From Cladocopium goreaui (taxonomy: Eukaryota > Sar > Dinophyceae > Suessiales > Symbiodiniaceae), in NCBI GenBank assembly GCA_947184155.2, contig CAMXCT020000123.1:139001-203000 (forward strand): a DNA stretch of 64,000 nt, written 5' to 3'. Shown here one piece after another: positions 4,389 to 58,905 of this stretch (its first letter is position 1; the number at the start of each line of letters is the position of its first letter). Made by a program: the position numbers and the translations under genes. The notes beneath the pieces were generated by a model. That model saw nothing but the letters and a program-made list of their open reading frames with translations. It was not told the DNA's origin and ran no database searches.

Positions 4389-4460
4389 CCCGCAAAAAAA
4401 GAGGGTCCTGTCCAATGGGGCCCGACTGGGGAGAGAAACATCAGTTACAAAGCGATATGT

Positions 4461-7400: not shown

Positions 7401-7982
7401 GATATATGATGATTATATGTTGATATACGATGATTATATGATGATATATGTTGATTATATGATGATACATGTTGATTATATGATGATATATGATGATACA
7501 TGTTGATATATGATGATTATATGATGATATATGTTTATATATGATTATATATGATGATTATATGATGATACATGTTGATTATATGATGATACATGTGGAT
7601 TGTATGATGATATGTGATGATTATATGTTGATATACGATGATTATATGTTGATGTATGATGATACATGATGATTATATGATGATACATGTTGATTGTATG
7701 ATGATATGTGATGATTATTTGTTGATATACGATGATTATATGTTGATACATGATGATATATGATGATACATGTTGATATATGATGATATATGATGATATA
7801 TGATGATACATGTTGATATATGATGATATATGATGATATATGATGATACATGTTGATTGTATGATGATACATGTTGATTGTATGATGATACATGTTGATT
7901 GTATGATGATATGTGATGATTATATGTTGATATACGATGATTATATGTTGATGTATGATGATTATATGTGATATACATATGC
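4461..7982. repeat. 3.5 kb AT-rich minisatellite, 41-bp period built on 10-bp subunits
   Basis: Units of about 41 bp are made of three decamers of the TGATGATATA/TGATGATACA type plus one 11-mer (TGTTGATTATA). From about 4490 to 4800 two unit variants alternate, giving an 82-bp higher-order repeat. The array is regular to about 5945 and then more degenerate. Long minus-strand frames (MYHHISSYIII repeats) are by-products of the repeat, not genes. Confidence 0.97.
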
Positions 7983-37430: not shown

Positions 37431-38067
37431 GGGATGACGCGGTTTTGTGTGCTTGTGCTAACGCTCGGTTTCCAACGGAGTATGACAGCAAGGGCCATGG
37501 GCTAATGCGCCTTGCTGGGCATACACCGAGGCACTGGCCGGTCAGTTCGCGTCCTTGCGACTGCCGAACGTTCCGCCCTGCTCTCCACTGCGTCGCTTGG
37601 GAGGCCTTCACAAAGTTTCCAAGTCATGCACCGTTGTCATACGCAAATGCCTTTTCTTGCACATGTCTATTTTTCATGCTGTTTGTGGCTCATGGCCAGC
37701 ACCTGGTCATGCTGCATAGTAGGAATCAACACTTTCAGCACTTATATTTGAGGCGGAAGCCTTGACACGTCGCGTGAAAAGGCAACTAGATTGCACAACA
37801 GTTTTGTGTGTTCGATGCCACCTGTTGCCGGTTGCGCATGTCTTTGCTGTTGCTCCTGTACCAAGCAGATCGACGTAATGCCGTCTGTCACCTCGTTGGC
37901 CGGGGGTGCGGGATGACGGGACCTTGTGTGCTTGGGGCCAAGGCTCAGTTTCCAACCGCGTATGTTGATACTTCTGTTTGTCTCCTCCCATGTCTCTTCC
38001 ACACATGTGGCTGCCAGGTACCTCTTCGTCTTCGTCGTGCACGTGCCGCAGTTGCTCAACACCGTCT

Positions 38068-38205
38068 TCAACACACACACACAAACACACAAACACACAC
38101 ACCCACCCACCCACCCACCCACCCACCCACAAACACACACGCGCGCACACACACACAAACACACACGCACACACACACACATACACACACACATACACAC
38201 ACACT
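38068..38205. repeat. (CA)n microsatellite at the left edge of the large element
   Basis: (CA)n, then (CCCA)n, then CACACATA variants, running directly into the terminal repeat of the element. Confidence 0.97.
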
Positions 38206-38778
38206 AGACAAGAATGGATCATTATATGATCCGGCAGGAACTGAATCCTGAAACATGCAAACCAGCCTAGATCGTTAGATTAATAAAGGAGCCATATGAG
38301 GTACTTCTCGAAAACGATGTAGGGCATCCAATATTGTCCAACGTAGTTAAAACCAGAGTCCAAAGTGTTTTGACCAGCATGTTGAAAATCCAGAATAATG
38401 TTTCGGCGATTGTTTCCCAAAAAACCCAAAGTTCGTCGGCGACATGATCTCGGCGAAAATATGTCAAAAAATCATAATACTGTCGGCGATATGGTTTCGG
38501 CGAAAATCTGAGGAAGGTTCTGATGCATGCAATACAGATTGTGACAACCGTGTAGATTCGAAACAACGCAGTGTAACAGCTTGATCAACAGTTGAAACCA
38601 AATTTTGCAGGTACACAGAGTTGATCAGACTCTGCTTCCAGCACAAGTGGATAGCTTCGTTGGGTGCAGTCTCCACTGTGCTCTGCACCCCCCTGCAAAT
38701 GTGAAAGGATTCCCTGCAAATGTGAACAGGTTTGAATCAAAGAAGTTTTACATCTGTTCAGATGTTACACACACACAC
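38200..38778 (-). repeat. terminal direct repeat, 3' copy
   Basis: It begins CACACTAGACAAG and ends GATGTTACACACACA. Notable parts are the palindrome GGATCATTATATGATCC (38216-38232) and two diverged copies of a CGGCGACATGATCTCGGCG-type segment (about 38430-38510). Just inside, the sequence CCCCGCGTGTAGCGGGG (38778-38794) forms a 6-bp-stem hairpin that is absent from the other copy. Confidence 0.95.
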
Positions 38779-38886
38779 CCCGCGTGTAGCGGGGTTTGAT
38801 TTTTTGGAAGACCAACGCTGCAAATGTCGGCAAGATTATTCAAATACAAAAACCTTTCCGGTGCTAATGTACAGAGCCGTGTTCAG

Positions 38887-39708
38887 TCACTCAGAAGGGA
38901 GGTTCGTCTCAGCTTGAAGTGTTTGGATCGCGTCACGGAAGCTCATGTCCTCAAGCATCCTCCACGTGTCGTTGATTTCCCCCGATGTCATAGCAGCCCT
39001 CAAAGTGATTGAAAGTTGTTGGGCCAGGTCCTGAATCTTCGGAGTAAAGTGGGTTGCCTCCGTAGGTGCCGTGGTCTCAATGGGAACATTGTGAAAAGGA
39101 TGATGTCCATGTACTAGAGGAATCTCAAAATGATGTCGCCAATAATCCGCTGTGTGCAGGGACCACTCCCAGTTGCCCGAAAGACCGTAAAAGTAGTGCT
39201 CAGGATCACGACATTTGGAAAGCCCTGACAAGGGGATCTCTTCAATGAATAGCTCCCTGGTATTGTTGGAGTGGGTAATGATCTTGAATTGGATCTGGTG
39301 AACCACGCTGGAAGAGAAGTGAGCACGATGGAGGTAGTGGTATGCAGGACTTTGCTCCGTCGGAAAAGGGACGTCAGGAGGTGCGAGGCCTGAATATGTA
39401 TCAGAATGGGCCGTAGTTCCAATGTCGGTAGTTGTACTGTCAGCTGCCAAAGGTGCCGAAGGGGTCCCAGTAGTAGGATCAGGAGGACCAGAATGACATA
39501 GTGCAGAAGCCGGGCCGTCTGGTGCTTGATCTGGGTTGGTGGGAGCAAGTCCACGGTTGGGATTCGAAGGCCAAGCCAAGCCCGCCACGGTAGCGTCTCG
39601 TTTATGCTCCATGGGTGAAACGATCAGAAATGCGTGAAATGGTGCGACAAAAGCTGAGGCATCATGAAATTGCGAAAGTAAGCCAAGCCCAAGAATAATA
39701 ATAACCAT
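38887..39708 (-). CDS. element ORF8, type B accessory protein
   Basis: 273 residues from the ATG at 39708; a second ATG (MEHKRDATVAG) 32 codons on is an alternative start, since the first part is hydrophobic. The N-terminal third is Pro/Thr-rich. The core (TRELFIEEIPLSG, then TADYWRHHFEIPL) aligns by eye with ORF6 (DELWIVERTLDG, then TANHWRRYYDVPL). No known family is recognised. It is the last ORF before the 3' terminal repeat. Confidence 0.75.
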   Translation of the reverse strand: MVIIILGLGLLSQFHDASAFVAPFHAFLIVSPMEHKRDATVAGLAWPSNPNRGLAPTNPDQAPDGPASALCHSGPPDPTTGTPSAPLAADSTTTDIGTTAHSDTYSGLAPPDVPFPTEQSPAYHYLHRAHFSSSVVHQIQFKIITHSNNTRELFIEEIPLSGLSKCRDPEHYFYGLSGNWEWSLHTADYWRHHFEIPLVHGHHPFHNVPIETTAPTEATHFTPKIQDLAQQLSITLRAAMTSGEINDTWRMLEDMSFRDAIQTLQAETNLPSE

Positions 39709-39877
39709 AATGATGATAAAAGTGAGGTCCAGTCATCCATCAAGTGGTTCAAGGTTCACGGAAAGGCCATAGCTCAAAGCCTAACAAAATGGAAATCCAA
39801 GAATCCTTCGTGTTGAAAAATTGTCATAGGTAAAACGACAAACCCTCGAGCATGGTCTTTTTTGGCCAGTGAGCGTA

Positions 39878-40471
39878 TCAGGGCAGGATCACACCGGGGG
39901 TAACTTTGTTGCATCGCAGACGTAGCACGAAAGGCTGCGAGGTACCCGGGACGAGCAAGGAGGATTCAATGTAGTTGTACTGTCGGAGTCGCCATTCGGG
40001 TCGGTATTCCTCCAAAAGCTGCAAGATCGTCATATCATTGGGGACTTGGAATGTATCACCTTCCAGGTCGCAATAGCGAAACTCCAAATTCGAGGGGTCA
40101 AACTGGATGTCCCATTGGGTCCTCAATCTTTTTGAAATGCAGAAACGTAGTTCTCCAGTGGGAAGGAGGCCGGCTTCCACTGGTCCCATCTGACGTGACC
40201 AGGTGAACAGAGCTTCAAGTTCGTAGCCACTAACATTTTTGAGATTTGAACTAGCCAAAGCCATGTAGTGTTCACGGTCAGGTTCGCTGCGATGAGTCAG
40301 TTCCTGTAAGGGAGAGTAGTCAATCAAAATAAGGACAGGTCGGTATGGAGGAGGGTTCAAGTGACCAGGAAGGCCTCGGGGTCCAGCAAACCATCCAATG
40401 GTTCGGGTGCCCAGTGGTGTCTCAACCGTAGCTGTAGCGCGATATGGATGGGGCCGAGACGAATGAGCCAT
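39878..40471 (-). CDS. element ORF7, type A accessory protein
   Basis: 197 residues from the ATG at 40471; the frame is open to 40540 but without an earlier ATG. The segment YRPVLILIDYSPLQELTHRS, followed about 100 residues later by EEYRPEWRLRQYN, resembles ORF5 (HRPVIFQLDLKPMQQLAVRN and NWFYPTWKTHQHL). It lies 169 bases before ORF8. Function unknown. Confidence 0.75.
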   Translation of the reverse strand: MAHSSRPHPYRATATVETPLGTRTIGWFAGPRGLPGHLNPPPYRPVLILIDYSPLQELTHRSEPDREHYMALASSNLKNVSGYELEALFTWSRQMGPVEAGLLPTGELRFCISKRLRTQWDIQFDPSNLEFRYCDLEGDTFQVPNDMTILQLLEEYRPEWRLRQYNYIESSLLVPGTSQPFVLRLRCNKVTPGVILP

Positions 40472-40652
40472 GGCGTTGAATGTCGAGTTTCGAGTATAAA
40501 GCGGAAAGCCCAAGCTGCAACATAGAAGGACAATGACCAAGGAATAAATCCCAAAAATTGGAAAATGGAGGGAAACGGTGTACCTAGTGAGTAGTCACAA
40601 ATCGACGTGTAGTCACCGTACTTTTTTCGATGCCGACAAATAATGTGGTGTA

Positions 40653-41351
40653 TTACACACTGGAGTCAGACATATCCATCGGGTCCGTCTCGCTCGCTTC
40701 CAGTGGACCATGTACTTGTTGAGGAGGGATGGTAGGGCGATTGAGATGTAAGGTACGTTGCAATGTTGCCGGTGGTGAAGAAGGTGGTGTAGACCGCCAT
40801 GGTGGCCAATATAAAGAGGTGGTGGTTCCTTGAGAGTGGTGTTGGGCGGAACGTCCCCAGCATGACTGTAAAATATGGAGTTCGTCCGGTATCGCTTCGT
40901 ACGGTTGGGAGACATAGACGTTGGAGTGTTCAGGGTGTGGTAGAACAGGAACAGCAGTTGCCGTAGGGGAGGAGGGTGATTGGAGTGGTACGTCATAGTA
41001 TCGGCGCCAATGGTTGGCCGTGGTACGTAGGGTAGCACGATCGTTGGTGAGGTGCATGTTCTCCAGAAATGTTTCCACTGGCTTCCACGTTTCAATACCA
41101 TCAAGTGTCCTTTCCACGATCCAAAGTTCATCCGGACGAGTAGACAAAGGATAGTTCAGCTTCTTGATGAAGACGGAATGGACGGTGGTAGAGGTTGGGA
41201 TCATTCGCGCCGCTCGGGGAATATACGATGCCGAAGTAGGATCATCAGGTGGTAGGTGTGGGACTAGGCCATGTGCGGATGTAGGTGAGGAACGGTTTGA
41301 GACCAATCGAGCAGTATCATCCGTGTTGGAGGTCATCATGTACAGTAGCAT
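40653..41351 (-). CDS. element ORF6, type B accessory protein
   Basis: 232 residues from the ATG at 41351. The core DELWIVERTLDGIETWKP and TLRTTANHWRRYYDVPL has a counterpart in ORF8. The C-terminal half is Ser/Thr/Pro-rich and looks disordered. No known family. Confidence 0.75.
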   Translation of the reverse strand: MLLYMMTSNTDDTARLVSNRSSPTSAHGLVPHLPPDDPTSASYIPRAARMIPTSTTVHSVFIKKLNYPLSTRPDELWIVERTLDGIETWKPVETFLENMHLTNDRATLRTTANHWRRYYDVPLQSPSSPTATAVPVLPHPEHSNVYVSQPYEAIPDELHILQSCWGRSAQHHSQGTTTSLYWPPWRSTPPSSPPATLQRTLHLNRPTIPPQQVHGPLEASETDPMDMSDSSV

Positions 41352-41559
41352 AATATGATATCGAGATACACTGAACTGAAGCCAAAAAGCCGTGGGAAAA
41401 GGTCAATGATGGAAAGACTAACCACGAACATCGCAATATGTAAAGAAGAGAAGCAAGGGAGACAAAAGAAACCCAAAAACCGGGGTAGAGGACATCATAA
41501 CGAGTGCTTTTTCCTTTCTCATAGACGTGAGCGTCGCCAAGATCTATCTCAAAGGCTAA

Positions 41560-42231
41560 TCACTCGGCCGATTTAGTGTATCTGGTGGCCGTGACGAATG
41601 GATGCCCGCGGGGAATCACTTGAACATGGACAGCGAAGCCTGTGTCCTGTGGGTCTGGATGGGGTGTCAGCGTCAAAGGTGAACAATCCCGAGTCGTGAA
41701 GGCATCGAGATGTTGATGAGTTTTCCATGTCGGGTAGAACCAGTTCAAAACGTCCAGGAGAGAATGAGGTAGGTCGTCCAGCATCTGAGCTCCTTGATCG
41801 GTGTCAATCATCATGTAGAAATCTGTCGCTGGTAGGTGTATCGACCATCGTTGTAACAGCGTGTCGGTAACCACGGTTTTGAGGTCTGAAACGAAATAAC
41901 TGCGAGCATAGTCCGGGTAGATCACCTTGAAAGTCTGGAACAAGCTATCATAGGTGGCCGTAGAGAGGTTGCCTGCGACCTTGGGGGTCAAGATGTTGTA
42001 GTAAGGGTTGCGGACGGCAAGTTGCTGCATCGGCTTCAGGTCCAATTGGAAAATAACCGGTCGATGGGGTGTTGTAGGTGGAGTCCGGTTGAGTGGGTGC
42101 TGCAGTGACGAAGACCCCATAGCGGAAGACGATGCCCTTGTTGGAGAGCGTGAGCGTCGTGTAGGTGAGATCCTCTCGTGGGACATAGCTCGCAGTTGGC
42201 AATAGCGGTCCAGGTGAATGCGGAGAGACAT
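41560..42231 (-). CDS. element ORF5, type A accessory protein
   Basis: 223 residues from the ATG at 42231; MSHERISPTRRSRSPTRA shortly after is another possible start with a short Arg/Ser stretch. The globular part runs from HRPVIFQLDLKPMQQL to about residue 200 and is distantly similar to ORF7. No known family. Spacers of 178 and 208 bases separate it from ORF4 and ORF6. Confidence 0.75.
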   Translation of the reverse strand: MSLRIHLDRYCQLRAMSHERISPTRRSRSPTRASSSAMGSSSLQHPLNRTPPTTPHRPVIFQLDLKPMQQLAVRNPYYNILTPKVAGNLSTATYDSLFQTFKVIYPDYARSYFVSDLKTVVTDTLLQRWSIHLPATDFYMMIDTDQGAQMLDDLPHSLLDVLNWFYPTWKTHQHLDAFTTRDCSPLTLTPHPDPQDTGFAVHVQVIPRGHPFVTATRYTKSAE

Positions 42232-42409
42232 AATAAATGGCTAGCGGGTTGTATGAAATGACATGTCAAATTTCACTGGAGCAACAGCGCCAGAGTTTGC
42301 GAAGATCAAAATTAGGAACGAAAATTCTCAAAAGACGAGCAAAACTGTGTGGTGACGCTATAATACAGTGCCGCAGGCTAACTTTTCCTTGGTTCGCATA
42401 TGTCGTTGG

Positions 42410-43042
42410 TCAGCCAAGCTTGTCCTTAATCTTGTTCCACATAGAGCGAACATCTTCCTCGGACTTGCCCATCTTGGTCGATATCACCCGCCATGAAAAT
42501 CGAGACTTCTCGTCCGCCTTCAAAGTACGTAGTTTCTGTTTGTCTTCGGAAGTCCAGATTGACAGTGGGCTCGCGGAGCGGGATCGGGATCGGTCAAGTC
42601 GGCGACGACGTTTGGCAGGCGCTTTGGGAGCGGATTTGGCTTTTTGTTTGCGAGTCGGTGGTGATGGTGTTCTGGCAGAAAGCTTCGAGGGTGCAGGTAG
42701 GACATCAGGTGACGGAGCAGCAACATGGTGGTGTGGTTCAGGGAGATGGGTTTCCACCAGTTCGTCCATAAGTGTCTCGTCCTCCACAATATCCGGCGAC
42801 GGGATGGGGGCATTGTCAATGAAGTCGTTGGTCTGGTCCGAGTAATGCGGTCGTAGCCCATCAGGTTGATTCCATACGTCTGTACTGGGAAGAGGAGTAG
42901 GTTCAATGTTGGGAATGAGCGTGGGTGGTAGTAGCGCCATTGCTCGATGTAGTAAAAGGTAAGCATGGTGAACATCATGAAGAAATTGAAGGAACACTGG
43001 TTCTTGAATCGGAATTGACGTAGTAGGAGACGAGGAAGCCAT
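42410..43042 (-). CDS. element ORF4, Myb/SANT-like DNA-binding protein
   Basis: 210 residues from the ATG at 43042 (the frame is open to 43066). The C-terminal 48 residues contain three Trp at 163, 184 and 202 with Myb-like spacing, starting WTSEDKQKL and ending SMWNKIKDKLG, as in Myb/SANT or trihelix-type DNA-binding domains. A basic nuclear-localisation-like cluster (KRRRR) and an SRSRS stretch precede it; the middle is acidic and Pro-rich. A role in target choice or transcription of the element is possible but is inference. Confidence 0.75.
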   Translation of the reverse strand: MASSSPTTSIPIQEPVFLQFLHDVHHAYLLLHRAMALLPPTLIPNIEPTPLPSTDVWNQPDGLRPHYSDQTNDFIDNAPIPSPDIVEDETLMDELVETHLPEPHHHVAAPSPDVLPAPSKLSARTPSPPTRKQKAKSAPKAPAKRRRRLDRSRSRSASPLSIWTSEDKQKLRTLKADEKSRFSWRVISTKMGKSEEDVRSMWNKIKDKLG

Positions 43043-43215
43043 GACGAAACGTCGAATATGGGCCAAGAAGTAAATGAAGCCGAGTTTGAGGGTGAGCCAG
43101 CTGAGAGCGCACTACTCCAAGATCATATAAATTCACATGTGGTCCGGATAGGTGAAACGTTCAGCAGGATGTGAATAATGAAATGTAAGCGCTAGCGGCA
43201 GGACGGTTCAGGATT

Positions 43216-45942
43216 TTACCACAATGAGGAAACGTGCAAGTATTGACGGATCGGCTTGGCGGCAGCAGCAAGATCGGTCTCGGTAAAACCTGCAGTTCTG
43301 TACAAACGGTGCAATGCGGCAAAACCTCGTGTTCGTTCGTGTGCAGGGTGCGCGCATTTGGCGACCAGAAATAATCGTGAAACAAAACCCGAAAGTTGGA
43401 CGGCCAGAGGTGATGCGGAGAATGGCGCCATGACCTGGTTGAAGTCGCGTGGAGGGCTGTAGCGAAGGGCAAAGGGCTCGAACTCGATGCAAAAGCCCAG
43501 GAACTCCTGGTCCGGTTCCGTTTCCAAAATGATGGGATGACCGTAGAACTCCGGGTGAAGGAAATTGGCGAAGCAGATTTCGTAGTCCCAGCAGGGATCC
43601 GACAAGCACAGTCTGTTGTCCACATAGCGAAGGAGGTGAGCTGTAAGGTCCATGGTGTTGAGGGTGGTGCGGTAGGTTCGGTACCAGATTTCTTCAGAGA
43701 GTGCGACAACCATCATGCACAATGCTGGACTCAGTGGGGAGCCCATAGGGGATCCCCGAATTTGTTCAAAAACCGTAGTGCCAATGGAGAATTGAGTCAT
43801 CTTCAACGACATAAGGATGATGCGTTCAATGTCCCGAATGAAGATCTTCCTGGTCACATTGAGTGTACGGCATGTGCGGCCTTTGACTACATCGCCTGTG
43901 GTGTTGCCCGGAGTTGCCTTCACGGAGATGATCTCGTCGGGGTCGGTGTTCATGAGAGCCGAGAGGAACTGCAAGGTCAGTCGCCAGCTAGCGATGAAGC
44001 GGTCAGTGTCGATGCTCGTGAAGAAACCCGCAAGATCTTGGTTGTGTATTCGTGGAGTAGGGAGCGAATCGAAATCGGTGTCCTTGAGGAGCTTGATGAG
44101 ATCAAATACATCACCCTTGGCCAGGTTGTTGGGAAACGCTTGGGGCAGAAGGTTGTAGATCAGCTTGGCGGTGCAGTTCAACATAGGTCGGAAAGGTGCC
44201 GTGAAGAAGCTGACAATGGGTCGCCCGGCCTTGAACTGTTTCTTTCGTTTGGGGAGAACGTAAGCATTCGGTAGGTCTCGTCCCGCCCCAAGTGCCCATG
44301 GGTATGCTTTGCCAAATTGACGGTTGATCTCGGCGATGGTCTTCTCGATGATGTCATTTGGGCTTTGCTCCAATTTTCGAAATACCAACGGGTCGGCGAA
44401 GGTGGTGGTGAGGCACTGGAAGTAGAGTACGGGGCAGTAGATTCGTAGGGATGTAGCTCGCTTGTCCTCGTTGTGGAAGACGGCTTCTGGAAAGAGACGT
44501 TTGAATCGGCCGATGTCTTTATGTGTGATGTGGTTGTTGAGGGTGTGGTGGTGGGACTGAATAGAGCGATGCCAAAGCTCATCGATATGGGACTTTTGTA
44601 AGGAAGGGAGTGAGTTCCGGGTAGTCCACGTCCGCAGAGCCAGGCGAAGGGACGTCTGGATCTCTTTGGAAGGTGGGAAGATTTTGTTTTGGAGCGAGCC
44701 CGTCGCAATGGATGTGTGTGGGCCATCATCGAAATGTAGGTTGTCGCCGTCCAGGACCAAGTGGTGATCAGGTTGGGGATCATGAAGGGCGTGAGGTCGC
44801 AAGGCGTCACAGGCACATTTTGGGGTTTCGCCATCAGCCCATTTTGTAGCGGCTTCTTTGTGATTGCACAAGCTGTCCATAACCGAAGGGAACTTTGTGA
44901 AGACAATCCCGGTGGAAGGAGTCTGCAATGTAGTGTTGTAACTTCGAGTTTGATGAACGTGGGAGGTGAGCAGCCGTCGAAGATCCCGAGTCCAGTTGGG
45001 GCCTAGTAGCCAAGGTGCACGAAGAGGAACCGGTTTTCTGACTCGTTTGGCCTTCCAGAAGGTCAAGGCTCGGTCGATGGCATTGATTGCGTACGACCTC
45101 TGGGGTTCGCCTAGGTTGTTGGCAAGACGTCGAATAAAATAGCATCCTTGGGCTCCAATTTCGTTGGATCGGAGTTTCTTCTCCATGTGGAAGCGTCGGA
45201 CGGAGTTACTGCCCAAATCCTGAATGATCTCCCAAAGTTGTACTCGTCGATGAAAAAGAGGACTATGAAGAGCATGTCGAACATGATGTGGTGTAGATCG
45301 CCAGCGAAGTTTCCGCCACAAGGAAAATGCTCCAAATTGTCGGGAGGCGGAAAATTTGGTACGTGCAATGAGTCCCTTTCGGCAATTGAAAAACTGGTAA
45401 ATGAACGGAATGTTTAATCGAGGTTGCCACAATTGAATTAAGGCTTGCTCCAAAGCCCAAAAGTTGGATTTATTGGTGTAGATCGGGAAAACAGACCACA
45501 TCCAGAAATTGTCAAATCTGCACCAAAACCGTAAGGCTACTTCGGCCAGCACGAATTTATGTTGTTGCACTTGCAGAAATTTCCGATAGCGAGAGTGTTC
45601 GCGGTCCAAAACAAAAGAGGAAGTGGAACCAACATAAAACTTGGGTTGAAAATTGGCAATGTGGCAAAAGCGAATATACACCGCCTGAGGGTGCTTGAAA
45701 CATTGGAGGGCGATTGACAAGTCATCCCACGATCTGCAAAAGAAAATACTCTGCATCGGAGTGCCTTTGAGCAAGGCTTGGAGTTTCGGATTGGCACGTG
45801 GATGTAATAACACATATTGGCCCATCAGTACCGTTTGGAGCATCCGAAAGGCAAAAAAGACATCAACAGAAGGGGACAACGTGAATGGGGTCAATAGTGC
45901 AAGAACAAGAATACAGGAATGAGCCACGGCCAAAGTTCGCAT
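43216..45942 (-). CDS. Penelope-like reverse transcriptase with N-terminal GIY-YIG nuclease
   Basis: 908 residues from the ATG at 45942 (frame open to 45975, 12 bases after ORF2's stop). After a hydrophobic start, the GIY-YIG nuclease spans about 85-185: a Tyr at 89 in the GIY position, YVG at 103-105, Arg 114, Glu 165 and Asn 177 (WQPRLN). A Cys/His-rich segment (CNH, CAC, 359-378) follows. RT motifs: GRPIVSF (573-579), QDLAGFFTSI with Asp 636, RGSPMGSPLSP (729-739), RYVDN (772-776) and EFLGF (813-817). The second Asp of the usual YxDD box is Asn. The nuclease would nick target DNA and the RT prime from it. The nuclease-first order matches the permuted Naiad/Chlamys group rather than classical Penelope, which has it last. 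Confidence 0.9.
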   Translation of the reverse strand: MRTLAVAHSCILVLALLTPFTLSPSVDVFFAFRMLQTVLMGQYVLLHPRANPKLQALLKGTPMQSIFFCRSWDDLSIALQCFKHPQAVYIRFCHIANFQPKFYVGSTSSFVLDREHSRYRKFLQVQQHKFVLAEVALRFWCRFDNFWMWSVFPIYTNKSNFWALEQALIQLWQPRLNIPFIYQFFNCRKGLIARTKFSASRQFGAFSLWRKLRWRSTPHHVRHALHSPLFHRRVQLWEIIQDLGSNSVRRFHMEKKLRSNEIGAQGCYFIRRLANNLGEPQRSYAINAIDRALTFWKAKRVRKPVPLRAPWLLGPNWTRDLRRLLTSHVHQTRSYNTTLQTPSTGIVFTKFPSVMDSLCNHKEAATKWADGETPKCACDALRPHALHDPQPDHHLVLDGDNLHFDDGPHTSIATGSLQNKIFPPSKEIQTSLRLALRTWTTRNSLPSLQKSHIDELWHRSIQSHHHTLNNHITHKDIGRFKRLFPEAVFHNEDKRATSLRIYCPVLYFQCLTTTFADPLVFRKLEQSPNDIIEKTIAEINRQFGKAYPWALGAGRDLPNAYVLPKRKKQFKAGRPIVSFFTAPFRPMLNCTAKLIYNLLPQAFPNNLAKGDVFDLIKLLKDTDFDSLPTPRIHNQDLAGFFTSIDTDRFIASWRLTLQFLSALMNTDPDEIISVKATPGNTTGDVVKGRTCRTLNVTRKIFIRDIERIILMSLKMTQFSIGTTVFEQIRGSPMGSPLSPALCMMVVALSEEIWYRTYRTTLNTMDLTAHLLRYVDNRLCLSDPCWDYEICFANFLHPEFYGHPIILETEPDQEFLGFCIEFEPFALRYSPPRDFNQVMAPFSASPLAVQLSGFVSRLFLVAKCAHPAHERTRGFAALHRLYRTAGFTETDLAAAAKPIRQYLHVSSLW

Positions 45943-45987
45943 AATGTTGGCTGCTTTTGAGCCAGGTGATTTCAAATACGCTGCTAG

Positions 45988-47292
45988 TCAGGAGTGCATC
46001 AATAACGCCACAGTCATGACCTTGAGGACGACTTCATCCGTGGAGGCCCCTTTGTGCTTGCATGGGTCGATGCCCATAGCCACGCTTGCGCGTTGGATAG
46101 TTTTGGAAGCATCATCGGGTTGGTTTTGCCACCATTCGTTGACCTTCTCCAAGTTCTTCTCCAGGATGTCCTGCTTGGGCTGTGGTAACTTCAGATCTTT
46201 CACCCACTTCTTGTATTGGGTGTCCGACAATGATGTGGGTTGATTGTCAACGAGCCAAGTGTTCACGGATCCCGGGGAGATAAGTAGAGTCGAAGGGTCA
46301 AAGGTCGTAGAGGCGGCAGGTTGTCCTTGAAGTGCGCGTCCAATCGGTGTCGTGGCCGGAGTAGAGCCCTGAGGTGCCGTACCCGGTGAAGTAGTGGCGG
46401 CCGATTTTACCTTGGCCAGTTCTGCCTCCAGTTCAAGAATGCGTTGTTGGCTCGCCACGTCCGCGGAGGGTTGAGCCGGGAGCCAAGATTGGAGAAGTTG
46501 AGCAACGTCTTTGGCCATGTTTTGAGTTGCTTCCTTCTGGTTGAGACATTGGCCTGCTGAGCGAGCTCGAAAGGTAGCAAGTTTGTCCAAATCCACATTG
46601 CGGGTGCGTAGTTGTGATACCAATTCAGCCACAAATACTGTAGTGCCTATGTTGTCAAAAGGGAGGACGAAGGTTTCTCTTCCGTATGCAACCCGACGGA
46701 GCCAGGTATTGTGCAAGCCCTGGTACAAGAACTTCCAGAGTGGGACTTGTAAAGGATCCATCCCTTCAATGTCCTTGTAGCTTGAAAATCTGCTCTGTCG
46801 GATTCTGGAGGGGAAAATCCAAACCATTGATTTGTTGGAGTCGTGGAAGTCGACATCAGGTTTCCATTGCTCCACTGGTGGGATTTCAATTGGTCTGCAT
46901 GTATATCCTTCGTTGACAGTGGAACTTGCTCCCGGGGATGACATAGGCCTCGGCGATCTCGGTGTAAAAGGATGACGTTGAGGTGCAAAGTTGGCATTGT
47001 TGGGAGGTGTCTGTGAACACGGAGGCGGTGTGGGCGGAAAAGGTGCCGTAGGTGGAGTCCATGGTGGGCGTGTTGGGAACGATGGAGATGTAGGTGGCGG
47101 AGGCGGTATTCCGGACGGGTTCCAGAAAGGTCGATGGGGCGCCATGGCATAGTGCATCGGGCCACGGAACGCAGGTACTGCTTGGTGCCATCCATGTTGA
47201 TGACGGGGAGGTGTGCGAGAGCGATCCGGCTGGGAAGGAGGAATTCCATTCACATCCGAGTTGAACTGGGAGATCAGGTCCTGGGACGCCAT
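45988..47292 (-). CDS. element ORF2, gag-like protein
   Basis: 434 residues from the ATG at 47292. The N-terminal 140 residues are Pro-rich and disordered. A globular region (about 150-280) contains WKPDVDFHDSNKSMVWIF and PLWKFLYQGLHNTWLRRVAY. A short coiled coil (RILELEAELAKVKS) follows, then a C-terminal domain with WVKDLKLPQPKQDILEKNLE. No family is recognised; the layout suggests a structural RNA-associated protein. Its stop lies 12 bases before the RT frame opens, so coupled translation or one transcript is likely. Confidence 0.75.
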   Translation of the reverse strand: MASQDLISQFNSDVNGIPPSQPDRSRTPPRHQHGWHQAVPAFRGPMHYAMAPHRPFWNPSGIPPPPPTSPSFPTRPPWTPPTAPFPPTPPPCSQTPPNNANFAPQRHPFTPRSPRPMSSPGASSTVNEGYTCRPIEIPPVEQWKPDVDFHDSNKSMVWIFPSRIRQSRFSSYKDIEGMDPLQVPLWKFLYQGLHNTWLRRVAYGRETFVLPFDNIGTTVFVAELVSQLRTRNVDLDKLATFRARSAGQCLNQKEATQNMAKDVAQLLQSWLPAQPSADVASQQRILELEAELAKVKSAATTSPGTAPQGSTPATTPIGRALQGQPAASTTFDPSTLLISPGSVNTWLVDNQPTSLSDTQYKKWVKDLKLPQPKQDILEKNLEKVNEWWQNQPDDASKTIQRASVAMGIDPCKHKGASTDEVVLKVMTVALLMHS

Positions 47293-47638
47293 GGTGTAGA
47301 CGGGGCCACGAAATAATAGGTCAAATAAGCTCGAACTGCCGGTTGAAAGCTGCGGAAATTGTCAAGGTGAGACAAGAGTAATGTGCGATTGAAATGGTGT
47401 GAAACTTAATACGTAGTACCAGTATGTGAAACGTAAAGTGAAATCCGAATCTGGCGTAAGGTTCAAATATCATGAGCATGCAGCAGTTCACAAACCTTTT
47501 GAGGAAGAAGTGGCATCAATACCGAATGTCGGGAGAAGCATTGTTACTCCAAAATGATCGGGCAGGGCCACTAGGCTCACTGTATCGCTGTCGTAGAATG
47601 GTCGATACTTGTTCCGGTGCTCCTCAGAGGTAAAGAGT

Positions 47639-50242
47639 TCACCAACGAGATCTGGAGTGATATGTCGAGTGTCGAGAACGAGGTCGGCCTTCACGGTGCT
47701 GGTCTCGAGAGTGGCCTTCATGATAGGAGGAACGGCGATCTCGGCGGCTGTAGGTTGAATTGTCCCAAGAAGCTGTGTCGTGCCAAGATCGGCGAGCATG
47801 ATCTCGAGAACCAGAAGCAGCGGTCTCGTGGTGGCCAGGTGTGTCTCGAGAGTCGTCTGGAGGTGGTTCCAAAGGTTCTGGGGCGTTGGCAGGAGGGTCA
47901 GGTCGTACTGGACGTGCATGATCATCAGGAGGTTCCGTGGGTGCATTGGTCTCCGCCGTCTGGTGTGTGATCAGGCCCGGGAAAACCGAGTGAGTGGAGG
48001 CAACATAGCATATGGATGCGGCGCTGGAGTTCATAGCCGTTGCATTGTCTTTGCCCTTGGCTATGCCCGCAAGGTTGCACAAGCGTTGAATTTGGTCATT
48101 TCCTCCAGCTAGGGCACGGATGCATTTGGGTGAGCGGCAAATGGCCAGCAGGCCTGATGGGTTTTGTCCTTTGCCAATTTTGTAGAGCTGAGAGGTACAG
48201 ATCTTGACAGCATAGCCGGGTAGGTTGTCGATGTCTGCGATCTCAGAGGACATACCGAAGAACCCGTAACATGGGTATTGAGTTGGCATGCCGGCTTCGT
48301 TTTTTGTCCAAGTTGCCTGCAGTCTTCCGCGAGAATTTTGGCAACTGTTTCCCAACTCGTTTTGTGGTAGATGGGTGCCCATGTGTTCGCCACGATAGAT
48401 TGGTTTCTTTTTCAATCCTGTGCTGATGGTCAGCAGGTTCTCTGGCTCGATGTAGAAGGCTTGTGTTTGCCTCGCAAGCTCGATGTCCAGTAAGTTGGAT
48501 TGTGCAAAGGCCCTGGCAATGTTTTTGACGGTGGCTTGGCTTGCTTTGATATAAATACGTTGGTTGTTGACGGTGCGGTATGGTTGAGCCAACTGGTGGA
48601 ACATCTCGTCAACGAATTGGTTGAAGAGCTGCAAGATGGCCGGGGTCAATGATTGGCGTAGGGGCACAACATGATCGGGCCCAAGCTCAGTCAGGCAGCG
48701 GACCCTAAGGGGGTCATTGGCCGCCTCAACCATTTCACTGAGGTCGATGTCATTCGTGTCGAACTTGGTGATCGAAATTGTATCTGCAACCTCAGAATTT
48801 TCACTGTCACCGTCAGGGACGCGGAAGGACACAGCGCCAAGTGGTGCTGAAGTATGGGCTGGTGGGTTGGTTGGTGGTTCCGGTGGTGGTGGATTGGCAG
48901 GAGAATTGGGTCGAGCATTGTGGTGATGGTAGTTGTCGGTGTAGTGGCTGTCGTTCCATGTACCCCAGGTGTCATCAGCGTCGGGAGTGGGGATGTAGTT
49001 CGGATTGAATGGGTTTGCAGCTGGTCGAAGTATGACTCCACGGCCTCTGGATCGGTGACGTGGTGTCTCGGAACGTGGTCGTGGGTGAGATCGATGACGT
49101 CGAGGAACCACGGGAGAGCGGCGTCTTGGTGGTGATCGTCGTCTGTATGGAGATGGGGTTCTGCGGTCCTTGGCATGTTTCGTGGATGACCGATAACGAG
49201 GAAGAGGAGAACGAGGTCGAGCTGCACGGTGGGGAGAATAGCGAGGGTGATGGGAACGTACAGAAGGTCGATGGGAACGTGATCTTGGAGTCCTGGATCG
49301 TGGTCGGCGTGTTGGTGATGGTGGAACATGTAGTTGGTGAGGAGGAGCGATGGTTGGAGCTTGGACAATACGAGGGTCTGGAACGTCAGGTTCGGTGGGT
49401 CTGGCTTTCGGTGCAGGTGGAGGAGTGGCGATCATTGGTGGTGCAGTTGTAGGTGGTGGTGTCTGTGGAATAGGGTTCGGTGGAGGTCCATCTTGTTGGA
49501 GAAGTAGCTGACGTTGTTCTTGGGCTCGTTGGGAATCCATGATCATTTGTTGCTGAGCTTGAATAAGTCGAACCGATTCCGCAAGTTGCTGTGCAGTGGA
49601 GCCCAATGCTACAAGTTCAGGTGACACGGATGAAGTCGGTGCTGCCGTAGGTGTTGGTGGTGTAGTAGGAGGAGGGGCTTTTGGAGCTGGTCGACGCGGT
49701 CGATCCGGTCGCTTGTCAGAGCGAAGCCTGGGAGCCGCCTTAACTGCTGGGGCCCGTGGTGAAGGTTCATCTGGAGGGACCATCGATGCGTCCGTTTGTA
49801 ATGGAGGTTGAATGTGGTGAGGTGGGTATGGAGAACTGGGCAAAGGTGTTGGTGGCGTAGTCGATGTAGGTGGTGTAGTCGATGTAGGGGATGGAGCTGG
49901 AGGAGGAGGCCACGTGGGTGGAGCGGTGGGTGCCGTAGGAGATGGAAAGGTCGACGGAGCGGTGTGCACCATAGTGGTTTCAGGGGCCAAAGGCGAGGGC
50001 ATGGTGGGTACGAGCTGTGGGCCTGGTATTGCATGAGGAGCCGGAGTCAATGAGGTGAACGGCAACGATGTTGGGGCTGATGTAGACGGCATGAGCGAAG
50101 CTGAGGAAGACCATGTAGGATGCAATGCCGAGGGATGTCCAAATAGATGTGCGTTCTGCGATGATTGCTGCCACGTCGAAGATGGGTTCGCAGGCTGCGG
50201 TGGAGCAGGCCATGACGTCGGAGGAGTGGTCCACGGATACAT
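47639..50242 (-). CDS. element ORF1, Pro- and Arg/Ser-rich gag-like protein
   Basis: 867 residues from the ATG at 50242. The first 310 or so are Pro/Thr/Ala-rich; about 310-410 is Arg/Ser/Pro-rich with many RS/SR dipeptides (RRPRSRTPRSRSHRPSVRS), like the RS domains of splicing factors. A globular domain at about 480-760 begins near DLSEMVEAANDPLRVRC and includes LTPAILQLFNQFVDEMFHQL. The C-terminus returns to Arg/Ser/His-rich sequence. RS-rich stretches bind RNA and proteins, so an RNP role is plausible. A second minus-strand frame (47488-47946) overlaps the end and also looks protein-like. Confidence 0.75.
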   Translation of the reverse strand: MYPWTTPPTSWPAPPQPANPSSTWQQSSQNAHLFGHPSALHPTWSSSASLMPSTSAPTSLPFTSLTPAPHAIPGPQLVPTMPSPLAPETTMVHTAPSTFPSPTAPTAPPTWPPPPAPSPTSTTPPTSTTPPTPLPSSPYPPHHIQPPLQTDASMVPPDEPSPRAPAVKAAPRLRSDKRPDRPRRPAPKAPPPTTPPTPTAAPTSSVSPELVALGSTAQQLAESVRLIQAQQQMIMDSQRAQEQRQLLLQQDGPPPNPIPQTPPPTTAPPMIATPPPAPKARPTEPDVPDPRIVQAPTIAPPHQLHVPPSPTRRPRSRTPRSRSHRPSVRSHHPRYSPHRAARPRSPLPRYRSSTKHAKDRRTPSPYRRRSPPRRRSPVVPRRHRSHPRPRSETPRHRSRGRGVILRPAANPFNPNYIPTPDADDTWGTWNDSHYTDNYHHHNARPNSPANPPPPEPPTNPPAHTSAPLGAVSFRVPDGDSENSEVADTISITKFDTNDIDLSEMVEAANDPLRVRCLTELGPDHVVPLRQSLTPAILQLFNQFVDEMFHQLAQPYRTVNNQRIYIKASQATVKNIARAFAQSNLLDIELARQTQAFYIEPENLLTISTGLKKKPIYRGEHMGTHLPQNELGNSCQNSRGRLQATWTKNEAGMPTQYPCYGFFGMSSEIADIDNLPGYAVKICTSQLYKIGKGQNPSGLLAICRSPKCIRALAGGNDQIQRLCNLAGIAKGKDNATAMNSSAASICYVASTHSVFPGLITHQTAETNAPTEPPDDHARPVRPDPPANAPEPLEPPPDDSRDTPGHHETAASGSRDHARRSWHDTASWDNSTYSRRDRRSSYHEGHSRDQHREGRPRSRHSTYHSRSRW

Positions 50243-50760
50243 CGCTCACGAAGAATAATGAAAAATAATGAAATTGCAACGACAGGATTCAGTTCCTAGA
50301 CCTACTGTTCGTGCGATTGTGCCACAACAGGCCCGTGGTCAAGTCGTGCCCCAATGGCATCAAACGGCTATCAAATTCCATCGAATTGGATGCACAACAT
50401 GTTTCACCTCACCAGAAACCAAAAAGACCACACCTGCAGGAAAAGGACATGCCTGTTGCCTGTTGTCTCACATGTCATGTTGAACTTCAAAAGCTCGAGC
50501 TGCAGTAGTAAAAATGAGGTTTCTGGTAGTTCGAAGTGGCTTCACTCAATAGAGATGCATTCCACTGGGTTCATAAAGGACAGCCGGAAACGCGGGACTT
50601 CACAAAAAGGTGCAAAACGGAAAGGCCAACTGTTGCGATTTACTTAGATGAATTACTAAATTAAAATGCGTAAATTCGACAGTCCGGACAGTCATCACTC
50701 ACCCTTAAAAGGGTTGCCTCAATTGGCTCCATGGCACCATGTCGGAGCCACCATGGAAAT
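50243..50760 (-). other. 5' leader of the large element
   Basis: About 520 bases between the 5' terminal repeat and ORF1 with no long frame on the element strand. CAGGATTCAGTTCCT at 50283-50297 is the exact reverse complement of 50797-50811 in the adjacent repeat (and of 38236-38250). Confidence 0.7.
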
Positions 50761-51339
50761 CACACTAGACAAGAATGGATCATTATATGATCCGGCAGGA
50801 ACTGAATCCTGAAACATGCAAACCAGCCTAGATCGTTAGATTAATAAAGGAGCCATATGAGGTACTTCTCGAAAACGATGTAGGGCATCCAATATTGTCC
50901 AACGTAGTTAAAACCAGAGTCCAAAGTGTTTTGACCAGCATGTTGAAAATCCAGAATAATGTTTCGGCGATTGTTTCCCAAAAAACCCAAAGTTCGTCGG
51001 CGACATGATCTCGGCGAAAATATGTCAAAAAATCATAATACTGTCGGCGATATGGTTTCGGCGAAAATCTGAGGAAGGTTCTGATGCATGCAATACAGAT
51101 TGTGACAACCGTGTAGATTCGAAACAACGCAGTGTAACAGCTTGATCAACAGTTGAAACCAAATTTTGCAGGTACACAGAGTTGATCAGACTCTGCTTCC
51201 AGCACAAGTGGATAGCTTCGTTGGGTGCAGTCTCCACTGTGCTCTGCACCCCCCTGCAAATGTGAAAGGATTCCCTGCAAATGTGAACAGGTTTGAATCA
51301 AAGAAGTTTTACATCTGTTCAGATGTTACACACACACAC
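50761..51339 (-). repeat. terminal direct repeat, 5' copy
   Basis: The sequence matches 38200-38778 with a constant offset of 12561 and no indel. It presumably holds the promoter. The three short ORFs in it are the same as in the other copy and are not credible genes. Confidence 0.95.
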
Positions 51340-51480
51340 ACAAACACAGACAGACGGACAGACGGACATACTTACTTACATTACAGTACATTCCATTACA
51401 TTACAGCACATTACATTACATCACATTACATTACTCATTACACTACACTAACTACGCCACATTACATAACATACATATAT
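51340..51480. repeat. microsatellite flank, (CA)n, (CAGA)n and CATTACATTA repeats
   Basis: Simple repeats follow the element directly, mirroring the (CA)n on its left side. Confidence 0.95.
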
Positions 51481-51917
51481 ACACAACCATCTGATTTCGC
51501 CATACACCAGTCGCAGACCATCCCTTTCCATGATGGTCTGCGCCGGCACATACACACATACACACATACAGACATACATGCAACTCTCTCACACGCACGT
51601 CTTTCATACGTACCTTTCACCATCTCATGTCTCTTTCCTGCCTTTCCCATTCCGTCTTCACCTTGCTTTTGTGACTTATGGGAAGAAGTTGACATGTGGG
51701 GTTGTCCGGTCATTTATTTTTGTTTTACAAGCACCATTGAAGCACTAAGCATGACAGAGACTCTCATCTCTAAAACTCTAAAAATCAACTTTGCTAACCA
51801 TGTATTTCTCAAACTTGCATGGTTCACACAAATATTTTTCACACCCACTGACATGCATTTTTTCATATGTGACTTTGCTAGGGGCCGGATTTCTACCACC
51901 AATTCCTTCCCGCCCAG

Positions 51918-52020
51918 GACTCCGCCTGCCACGCCTGTCCCTGCGACACCTGCGACACCTGCGACACCTGCGACACCTGCGACACCTGGAAGCGCCAAGA
52001 GCTTTCTGTCAGACTCTGAG
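51918..52020 (+). CDS. candidate exon with a PAT tripeptide repeat
   Basis: The 103-base exon lies between CCCGCCCAG and TCTGAG|GTGCCT. It encodes TPPATPVP followed by five tandem ATP units (9-bp repeat GCGACACCT) and GSAKSFLSDSE. The repeat looks like a flexible linker. Good borders, disordered product, function unknown. Confidence 0.5.
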
Positions 52021-56197: not shown

Positions 56198-57345
56198 TCC
56201 CCACCTGCCAGGTGAGGGTTGTTAGATTTTATGTCAGTTGCCTCCTCGTCCTCCTTCTCCTCCTCCTCCTTCTCCTCCTCCTCCTCCGCCTCGTCCTGCC
56301 TCGTCCTCCTCTCCTCCTCCTCCTCGTCCTCCTCGTCGTCCTCGTCGTCCTCGTCGTCCTTGCTCAACTGCGACCCGCGATCCACAGTGTTCTCTGCCGG
56401 ACCTCAACCACGAACCATCCACGCCCAGTGTTCCCTGCCGGACCTCAACCACGACCATCCACGCCCAGTGTTCCCTGCCGGACCTCAACCACGACCATCC
56501 GCGCCCAGTGTTCCCTGCCGGACCTCAACCGCGACCATCCGCGCCCAGTGTTCCCTGCCGGACCTCAACTGCGACCATCCGCGCCCAGTGTTCCCTGCCG
56601 GACCTCAACCGCGACCATCCGCGCCCAGTGTTCCCTGCCGGACCTCAACCGCTCTTCTGACATATCTTCTGACATTTTATTTGGCATTCTATCTGGCATA
56701 TCTTCTGGCATATCTTCTGGCATTCTATCTGGCATTCTATCTGGCATATCTTCTGGCATATTATCTGGCATTCTATCTGACATATCTTCTGGCATATATT
56801 CTGACATATCTTCTGGCATATCTTCTGGCATATCTTCTGGCATATCTTCTGACATATCTATCTGGCATATCTTCTGGCATATTTCTGGCATTCTATCTGG
56901 CAACTCTTCTGGCATTCTATTCTGGCATTCTATCTGACATATCTTCTGGCATTCTATCTCTGGCATTCTATCTGGCATATCTTCTGGCATTCTATCTTCT
57001 GGCATTATATCTGGCATATCTTCTGGCATTCTATCTGGCATATCTTCTGGCATTCTATCTGGCATTCTATCTGGCATTCTATCTGGCATTCTATCTGGCA
57101 TATCTTCTGGCATTCTATCTGGCATATCTTCTGACATTCTATTTGGCATTCTATTTGGCATATCGTCTGGCATATGATCTGGCATATCTTCTGGCATTCA
57201 ATCTGGCATTCTATCTGGCATATCTTCTGGCATATCTTCTGGCACTCTATCTGACATATCTTCTGGCATTCTATCTGGCATATCGTCTGGCATATATTCT
57301 GACATATCTTCTGGCATTGGCAAATCTTTCCCTGCCGGACCTCAT
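56198..57345. repeat. compound tandem-repeat module 1
   Basis: In order: a unique lead (CCACCTGCCAGGTGAGGG), a CTC/CGTCGTCCT pyrimidine tract, about seven 40-bp units (CCCTGCCGGACCTCAACC...), then a 12-bp array (TCTGGCATATCT/TCTGGCATTCTA) of about 660 bases, closing with GCCGGACCTCATGTAGGAAG. Long frames (SLPDLNHDHPRP, LAYLLAFYLA, MPEDMPDR) are repeat by-products. Confidence 0.95.
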
Positions 57346-57749
57346 GTAGGAAGATATGGGCCACTATTGAGTTTGCGGGTGGCAAAGTTTGAAGCAATCA
57401 GTTTGAACAGATGACAGAGTCACTGGGGTGGACAGAGACATTTCCATTTCTGTACCTTTGGAGCTGTTTGCAAAGACGCTTGAGACAGGCAACATCTTAC
57501 AGCAAGTTACTACAAATTACTTGATGGGATCTCATGCTGGATTGATGCTTGAGACAGTCAACATCACACAGAGTTTCTATTGTGTATCACAGCTATGGTA
57601 GCATGGTGGATATGTGACATCGGAACATTCGCTGGAGCATTTGCGCCCTCATCTACTCGATCGCGGGCCAGAGGCAGGATGGACATCATCATAGAAGCAT
57701 TCAGCAGGAGGAGGTTATGTGATCAGTAGTGTCTTCTTGCGTGTTTTTC
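57346..57749. other. unique spacer between repeat modules
   Basis: Mixed composition with two similar phrases containing GCTTGAGACAG and CAACATC (about 57480 and 57550). No gene. Confidence 0.5.
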
Positions 57750-58905
57750 CCCACCTGCCAGGTGAGGGTTGTTAGATTTTATGTCAGTTGCCTCCTCCTC
57801 CTCCTCCTTCTCCTCCTTCTCCTCCTCCTCCTCCTCCGCCTCCTCCTGCCTCGTCCTCCTCTCCTCCTCCTCCTCGTCCTCCTCGTCGTCCTCGTCGTCC
57901 TCGTCGTCCTTGCTCAACTGCGGCCCGCGATCCACAGTGTTCTCTGCCGGACCTCAACCACGACCATCCACGCCCAGTGTTCCCTGCCGGACCTCAACCA
58001 CGACCATCCACGCCCAGTGTTCCCTGCCGGCCCTCAACCACGACCATCCCCGCCCAGTGTTCCCTGCCGGACCTCAACCACGACCATCCACGCCCAGTGT
58101 TCCCTGCCGGACCTCAACCGCGAGTATCCACGCCAAGTGTTCCCTGCCGGACCTCATGTAGGAAGATAAAATGTCAGATAGAGTGCCAGAAGATTTGCCA
58201 GGTAGAATGCCAGAAAATATGCCAGAAAATATGCCAGAAGATATGCCAGATAGATATGCCAGAAGATATGTCAGAATATATGCCAGATAGAATGCCAGAT
58301 AGAATGCCAGATAGAATGCCAGAAGATATGCCAGAACATATGCCAGAAGATATGCCAGATAGAATCCCAGAAGATTTGCCAGATAATATGCCAGAAGATA
58401 TGCCAGAAGATATTCCAGATAGAATGCCAGAAGATATGCCAGAAGATATGCCAGAAGATATACCAGAAGATATACCAGAAGATATGCCAGATAGAATGCC
58501 AGAAGATATGTCAGAATATATGCCAGAAGATATGTCAGAATATATGCCAGAAGATATGTCAGATAGAATGCCAGAAGATATGTCAGAATATATGCCAGAA
58601 GATATGCCAGATAGAATGCCAGATTGAATGCCAGAAGATATGTCAGATAGAATGCCAGAAGATATGCCAGATAGAATGCCAGAAGATATGTCAGATAGAA
58701 TGCCAAATAGAATGTCAGAAGATATGTCAGATAGAATGCCAGAAGATATGCCAGAAGATATGCCAGATAGAATGCCCAAATAGAATGTCAGAAGATATGT
58801 CAGATAGAATGCCAGAAGATATGCCAGAAGATATGCCAGATAGAATGCCAAACAGAATGTCAGAAGATATGTCAGATAGAATGCCAGAAGATGTGCCAGT
58901 AAGAA
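57750..58905. repeat. compound tandem-repeat module 2, with inverted 12-bp array
   Basis: The lead, pyrimidine tract and about five 40-bp units repeat module 1 in the same direction, but CTCATGTAGGAAGATA follows at once and the 12-bp array comes after it in the opposite orientation (AGAATGCCAGAAGATATGCC). Array 1 and array 2 are therefore inverted copies. Confidence 0.95.

Follow-up and report, generated by a model that had tools for sequence, protein, structure and literature searches.

A likely eight-gene family of Penelope-like retroelements in the genome of the dinoflagellate Cladocopium goreaui

The stretch of DNA analysed here (the window) comprises 64,000 nucleotides of contig CAMXCT020000123.1 from Cladocopium goreaui (assembly GCA_947184155.2, positions 139,001 to 203,000) and holds an element of about 13 kb with eight open reading frames (ORFs). 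It is likely to represent an autonomous eight-gene family of Penelope-like retroelements (PLEs) that is abundant in this dinoflagellate genome. The initial annotation, made from the letters of the window, had called it a multi-gene PLE and was right in kind. This interpretation is carried by further copies with the same borders and gene set, by constraint on all eight ORFs and by a second, distant family with nearly the same gene order.

Results

Two direct repeats, which, as first noted, cannot be told apart, enclose the eight ORFs, all of them head to tail on the minus strand: each repeat is exactly 579 bases long, with 0 mismatches between the two. On the sense strand the 5′ repeat starts with (GT)n-AACATCTGAACAGATG and ends with GTCTAGTGTG. 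The features of the element are, in sense direction:

50761..51339, minus strand: 5′ terminal direct repeat (pseudo-long terminal repeat, pseudo-LTR), identical to 38200-38778
50243..50760, minus strand: 5′ leader, with a hairpin at about 50728-50757 just within the repeat border; a related leader occurs in short relatives
50242-47639, minus strand: ORF1 (o1), 867 aa, Pro/RS-rich, with a conserved C-terminal part
47292-45988, minus strand: ORF2 (o2), 434 aa, gag-like by position only
45984..45990, minus strand: ORF2 stop in the context TGACTAG, a possible readthrough site, in 19/19 loci
45975-43216 as listed, minus strand: ORF3 (o3), 919 aa, with a mechanical TTG start
43216..45987, minus strand: ORF3 frame, 923 open codons directly following the ORF2 stop; GIY-YIG-like motifs, then a telomerase-like reverse transcriptase (RT)
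43066-42410, minus strand: ORF4 (o4), 218 aa, with a C-terminal Myb/SANT-like domain
42231-41560, minus strand: ORF5 (o5), 223 aa, a diverged relative of ORF7
41351-40653, minus strand: ORF6 (o6), 232 aa, a weak relative of ORF8
40540-39878, minus strand: ORF7 (o7), 220 aa as listed (TTG start; the first ATG is codon 24), with a beta-grasp (RAWUL/PB1-like) core
39708-38887, minus strand: ORF8 (o8), 273 aa, more diverged between copies than the other seven
38778..38794, minus strand: GC hairpin CCCCGC-loop-GCGGGG, on the inner side of the 3′ repeat and adjoining (GT)n
38200..38778, minus strand: 3′ terminal direct repeat (pseudo-LTR), identical to 50761-51339
38070..38199, no strand: CA-rich microsatellite, the probable target, flanking the 3′ end of the element

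The search of the assembly (1.166 Gb, 6202 contigs) with the repeat gave 46 matches from the 40 scored of 1770 candidates. Counting the window, these include 12 pairs on the same contig and strand, of which 11 are spaced 12.5-12.8 kb and one (C71, for which end sequences only were used) 17.5 kb. Ten pairs besides the window, each located elsewhere in the assembly, match the window element collinearly at 87-98% identity. All eight ORFs are present in each of these ten copies (blastn), and the border CACAC-TAGACAAG is common to their starts; the alignments of C341 and C740 each fall into two blocks, and C1605 has lost the final stretch of its right-hand repeat or carries it in altered form. The initial annotation had tied its reading to the existence of further copies with the same borders and ORF set, and these are the ten found. 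Within a copy, the two repeats differ at 0-7 sites in the nine of ten copies measured (C1605, without the right end motif, was left out), which agrees with the recent movement proposed at first sight.

Identical repeats could also come from an assembly duplication around host genes. However, the 12 pairs lie at different sites, and sequence shared among the compared flanks comes only from neighbouring related elements, so that we give this explanation practically no weight.

The coding part is frequent as well. With the RT as query, all 50 matches scored (of 1888 candidates) were full length and 96-100% identical, 48 of them without an internal stop; with ORF7, all 150 scored among 1142 candidates matched. 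An ORF7 lies downstream on the same strand of 39 of the 50 RTs (0.02 expected under random placement), in 37 cases at 2655-2729 bases and in two at 3571 and 4028, as would be expected for one mobile multi-gene unit. For the remaining 11 RTs, no ORF7 was found among the 150 matches scored.

Codon positions, spacers and leaders were compared in four of the ten copies. The C1757 copy (L009, L010) shares about 99% identity with the window over spacers and repeats, but its 5′ leader is diverged by 19%; it looks like a mosaic, perhaps from template switching. The repeat 50761-51339 differs from those of C3001, C225 and C2332 by 2.6-5.4% over the aligned part and the spacers by 18-21%. The low repeat divergence suggests strong constraint or exchange between copies.

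All eight ORFs bear marks of constraint. In pairwise comparison of nine copies (C1757 excluded) with the window, at a synonymous divergence (dS) of 0.16-0.56, the ratio of nonsynonymous to synonymous changes (dN/dS) was 0.20-0.24 for o1, 0.07-0.10 for o2, 0.06-0.07 for o3, 0.10-0.16 for o4, 0.08-0.12 for o5, 0.17-0.22 for o6, 0.23-0.34 for o7 and 0.33-0.35 for o8. Third codon positions changed faster than the first two in every ORF (ratio 1.4-8.3, against C3001, C225 and C2332). Measured stop to stop, at least 95% of the window frame length is kept, from o1 to o8, in 8, 9, 9, 9, 8, 9, 10 and 9 of the 10 copies. In o6, eight of ten copies have one stop relative to the window frame, and seven of these eight keep a frame of 231 codons. 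About 20 residues of the window ORF1 are out of frame relative to other copies.

A second family was found with the element on C6176, whose RT is 44% identical to that of the window and whose repeats of about 417 bp are 99.3% identical. Its gene order is nearly the same: ORF2 (39%), RT, a Myb ORF, two ORF5/7-like ORFs and one ORF6/8-like ORF, hence three instead of four ORFs of the ORF5-8 type as read. The element also has an RS-rich region resembling ORF1, which as read is distributed over different frames. Just a (GT)n tract separates the 5′ end of this element from the 3′ end of a first-family element, and an apparent further 5′ end follows the second-family element. With a query from a 46-49% family, all 50 RT matches were full-length or nearly so.

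The initial annotation had thought it probable that the extra ORFs were carried along recently, and this part of it is not supported. An ordinary PLE with one or two genes that had lately picked up host genes or a second transposon would be in line with known elements, typically of 4-6 kb with one or two ORFs according to excerpts of a review (PMC6431247), and PLE repeats are able to carry host genes, as excerpts of another paper state (PMC3846280). However, the same eight ORFs are present and constrained in all ten copies, ORF7 is linked to most RTs, and the second family has the Myb, ORF5/7-like and ORF6/8-like ORFs in the same order. Since this family retains most accessory ORFs at 44% RT identity, the plan is old and the extra ORFs are not recent passengers. 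As judged from the sequence comparisons, the accessory ORFs are constrained, old parts of the element. The evidence speaks against recent capture, which we consider very improbable; an old capture may have taken place.

Classification of the single proteins was possible in part. The Myb-like ORF of the initial annotation stays below the Pfam cut-off in the window (19.6 vs 22.9 bits) and is above it in the second family (30.0 bits, E 5.8e-7). When the ORF1 and ORF2 to ORF8-type proteins of C6176 and a part of the C3001 ORF1 were searched, Myb alone exceeded the cut-off. The position of ORF2 fits the gag-like ORF proposed, and Pfam gave no match for it. In the C-terminal part of ORF1, a stretch IYHKTSW.. 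/ LVHGTT.. is conserved in window-family copies and C6176; it is reminiscent of ADP-ribosyltransferase-like motifs, and Pfam reports nothing of that kind. A PDB sequence search returned no match for single-sequence or profile queries. Relatives of the element in viral contigs were also considered, where four pattern matches were obtained and none was confirmed.

ORF3 was described at first as a GIY-YIG nuclease followed by a Penelope-like RT, and this order is supported: motifs of putative GIY-YIG type lie N-terminal to the RT. Among 62 ORF3 relatives (fragments included), the E-containing motif occurs in 38 and the FYxG-type motif in 37. RVT_1 is matched by five of eight aligned ORF3 relatives (best E 4e-5), and telomerases are the best structural matches of the RT, based on a weak model with a predicted local distance difference test score (pLDDT) of 58. 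A relative of the RT, 62% identical, is a protein of Durusdinium trenchii. The alignments comprise 7 and 34, respectively, of the 62 RT relatives and 49 of 100 ORF7 relatives, each with the window.

The ends of the element are well defined. On the sense strand the 5′ end reads (GT)n-AACATCTG-AA-CAGATG (or ACCATCTG) and the 3′ end GTCTA-(GT)n. The GC hairpin that precedes (GT)n at the inner 3′ repeat reads CCCCGC..GCGGGG in some copies and CCTCGC..GCGAGG in others, so that the variants differ at one pair, changed on both sides; C225 has a mismatch there. A similar GC hairpin is present in the second family. In the window, a CA-rich microsatellite precedes the left repeat, and the right one passes directly into a CA tract; the other copies are also adjoined by CA tracts, which vary greatly in length. 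C3001 is embedded in a satellite, in which units without an insertion have CTT-(AC)n-GCAAG at the corresponding point. These units show the empty (AC)n site; the element therefore inserted there into a short (AC)n stretch, and no flanking bases were lost. Elements are also chained head to tail, and pseudo-LTRs as well as tandem and partial-tandem arrangement are features of PLEs.

Short relatives of the element were observed at L029, L032 and L043. Their repeats share about the first 60 and the last 38 bases with the element, and they have part of the leader; the parts kept are therefore likely cis signals. Such copies are probably not autonomous and were mobilized in trans.

An LTR retrotransposon or a related reverse-transcribing virus, with tRNA priming and integrase, would equally possess paired near-identical direct repeats and a gag-stop-pol-like layout. 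However, none of the eight ORFs gave a Pfam match to integrase, protease or RNase H at E 1, although Pfam barely detects this RT either. The telomerase-like RT, the GIY-YIG-like motifs and the CA targets likewise do not fit such an origin. Solo repeats were not seen either: the repeat occurs at 16 more places outside the ten copies and C71, and each of these adjoins element body on one side. We regard this alternative as highly unlikely.

ORF2 ends with TGACTAG (UGA-CUA-G) in all 19 loci considered, which are the window, the ten copies, C6176 and seven more from both families, picked from two lists and not at random. In the window, ORF3 is open in the ORF2 frame directly past this stop. The frame behind it is open for at least 920 codons in the window and seven of the ten copies, and it continues in phase in six of seven short stretches. 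In the 50 RT matches the open frame has 920-927 codons (47 exactly 923); the stop is therefore kept at the same place, the end of ORF2. TGA is used as a stop by this element, since o1, o4, o5, o7 and o8 also end with it. For fungi and animals, leakiness of the stop UGA CUA(G) has been documented, according to excerpts of a published study (PMC4207609). Both the context and the in-phase frame by which readthrough genes of this type are recognized occur here; readthrough itself we infer from them, and the conserved UGA-CUA-G with the nuclease/RT frame behind it suggests a Gag-Pol-like mode of expression. A stable RNA structure behind the leaky stop was considered and discarded as inconsistent between the families, with a fold z of 0.81 in the window and −2.5 in the second family.

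Alternatively, ORF3 may be translated from its own trans-spliced mRNA and UGA-CUA-G be kept for another reason, without readthrough. The host does have a spliced leader: its dinoflagellate pattern matched the assembly exactly 172 times and the reversed-pattern control 0 times, which marks the host as a dinoflagellate. No spliced-leader relics were seen in the window at 3 mismatches. The lack of strong RNA structure behind the window stop would also suit separate translation. However, only 12 nt separate the ORF2 stop from the mechanical start of ORF3, compared with 112-346 nt at the other junctions, no further stop lies between the two in the window, and CUA-G is retained while adjacent codons vary between families. 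We therefore think that a separate mRNA is unlikely, though a serious alternative, and that readthrough explains the junction better.

At this point we want to note other repeats of the window. A 3.5-kb tandem array with a ATATGATGAT-type unit (about 22% GC, strong GC skew) is located at 4455-7975. At 56385-58904 a 40-base unit forms two arrays, and a 12-base array comes after each of them; the two 12-base units look like mutual reverse complements. A tRNA search of the window found none.

Discussion

Several observations weigh against an autonomous eight-gene PLE with readthrough as described above. Regarding ORF3, the RVT_1 match is weak in the window (E 0.047), the predicted structure is poor, Pfam recognizes GIY-YIG neither in the window nor in the aligned relatives, and motif C of the RT reads YVDN in each of the 35 relatives matched by the pattern. 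Most RTs have YxDD here. Within 37500-52000 no Rfam match at E 5 or better was found, hammerhead included; hammerheads are common in PLE repeats, and we do not treat them as universal. At C2332, C71 and C4210 the flank adds just a few CA bases to the CACAC of the element itself, and a target-site duplication beyond CA is not definable. For the kinship of ORF5 to ORF8, profiles were built from relatives chosen by length (85 of 100 for ORF7; 94 of 120 listed, with 138 found, for ORF8), and the ORF8 profile failed to find ORF6. As to constraint, dN/dS was calculated against the window, and the ten copies are not ten independent tests because most belong to one subfamily. The near-identical C1757 has few changes and gives uninformative values (o6 2.0, o8 1.1), divergence of the o8 stop region prevented a match in eight of ten copies, and C225, C1502 and C341 have an interrupted ORF3 frame (longest frames 881, 882 and 617 codons). 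For the ORF2 stop, the fold behind it is not unusual in the window, C4651 has another stop 9 codons further on, and the predicted fusions P0012, P0055, P0059 and P0062 have W at the junction. Here, either TGA was read as W by the gene caller or the codon is a real TGG.

From these data the following course can be proposed for the eight-gene element. Transcription from the 5′ repeat would yield a long RNA, which spliced-leader trans-splicing could split into mRNAs. ORF2 would be made alone and, by readthrough of the leaky UGA in Gag-Pol style, as an ORF2-nuclease-RT fusion. This fusion may bind the element RNA while its nuclease cuts a CA tract, whose CACA 3′ end could pair with (GU)n at the RNA 3′ end or at the internal hairpin-(GU)n and prime reverse transcription. 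Priming on chained or tandem templates would produce the terminal repeats. ORF4 (Myb-like) probably binds DNA, and ORF5 and ORF7 (beta-grasp, PB1/RAWUL-like) are probably assembly scaffolds. These roles of the accessory proteins are deduced.

A more far-reaching and rather doubtful idea is that a branch of the telomerase/Penelope RTs has reached a retrovirus-like grade, with many genes, a Gag-like protein, a Gag-Pol-like fusion by readthrough, particle-building scaffolds and primed insertion into CA tracts. If true, this would parallel LTR retroelements but with primed insertion into CA tracts. An eight-gene, constrained and abundant lineage in a dinoflagellate would widen the range of PLEs, which are compact apart from the rotifer Terminons according to excerpts of a 2019 review (PMC6431247). 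In excerpts of a 2025 paper, PLEs are said to have been unreported before Ectocarpus in the supergroup that holds the alveolates (PMC12477816). The junction of ORF2 and ORF3 may furthermore offer a Gag-Pol-like readthrough case outside LTR elements, and the working of large retroelements becomes testable in a group with huge genomes. None of the publications listed by our literature search describes this element, and an earlier publication is possible.

Comparison with known systems

In the Chlamys/Naiad group the nuclease precedes the RT, and the order of motifs in our ORF3 fits this arrangement. Craig et al. reportedly described in 2021 such permuted domains in elements with few ORFs, and Chlamys targets CA repeats, a further likeness. 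We know of no accessory gene set or stop readthrough in this group.

Like Penelope/Poseidon, the element has pseudo-LTRs and occurs in tandem or partial-tandem arrays, and it may likewise join a GIY-YIG-type part to its RT within a single frame. Those elements differ in having one ORF, a C-terminal nuclease, a length of about 4-6 kb, hammerheads and AT-rich cut sites, as described in excerpts of three papers (PMC6431247, PMC11167929, PMC3846280).

The Terminons (Athena) of bdelloid rotifers are comparable in their many ORFs, head-to-tail arrays and PLE-type RT. In contrast, they have an endonuclease-deficient RT ORF, telomeric repeats by a 3′ hammerhead and other accessory genes, following excerpts of two papers (PMC6431247, PMC5408684). 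Our element ends with (GT)n adjoining CA tracts instead of a telomeric 3′ repeat, and its ORF3 contains GIY-YIG-like motifs, unrecognized by Pfam, where the Terminon RT ORF has no endonuclease. Finally, Tca2 of Candida albicans resembles the ORF2/ORF3 junction by a UGA between gag and pol; in this retrotransposon the stop is followed by a potential pseudoknot, according to excerpts of its description (PMC2194720).

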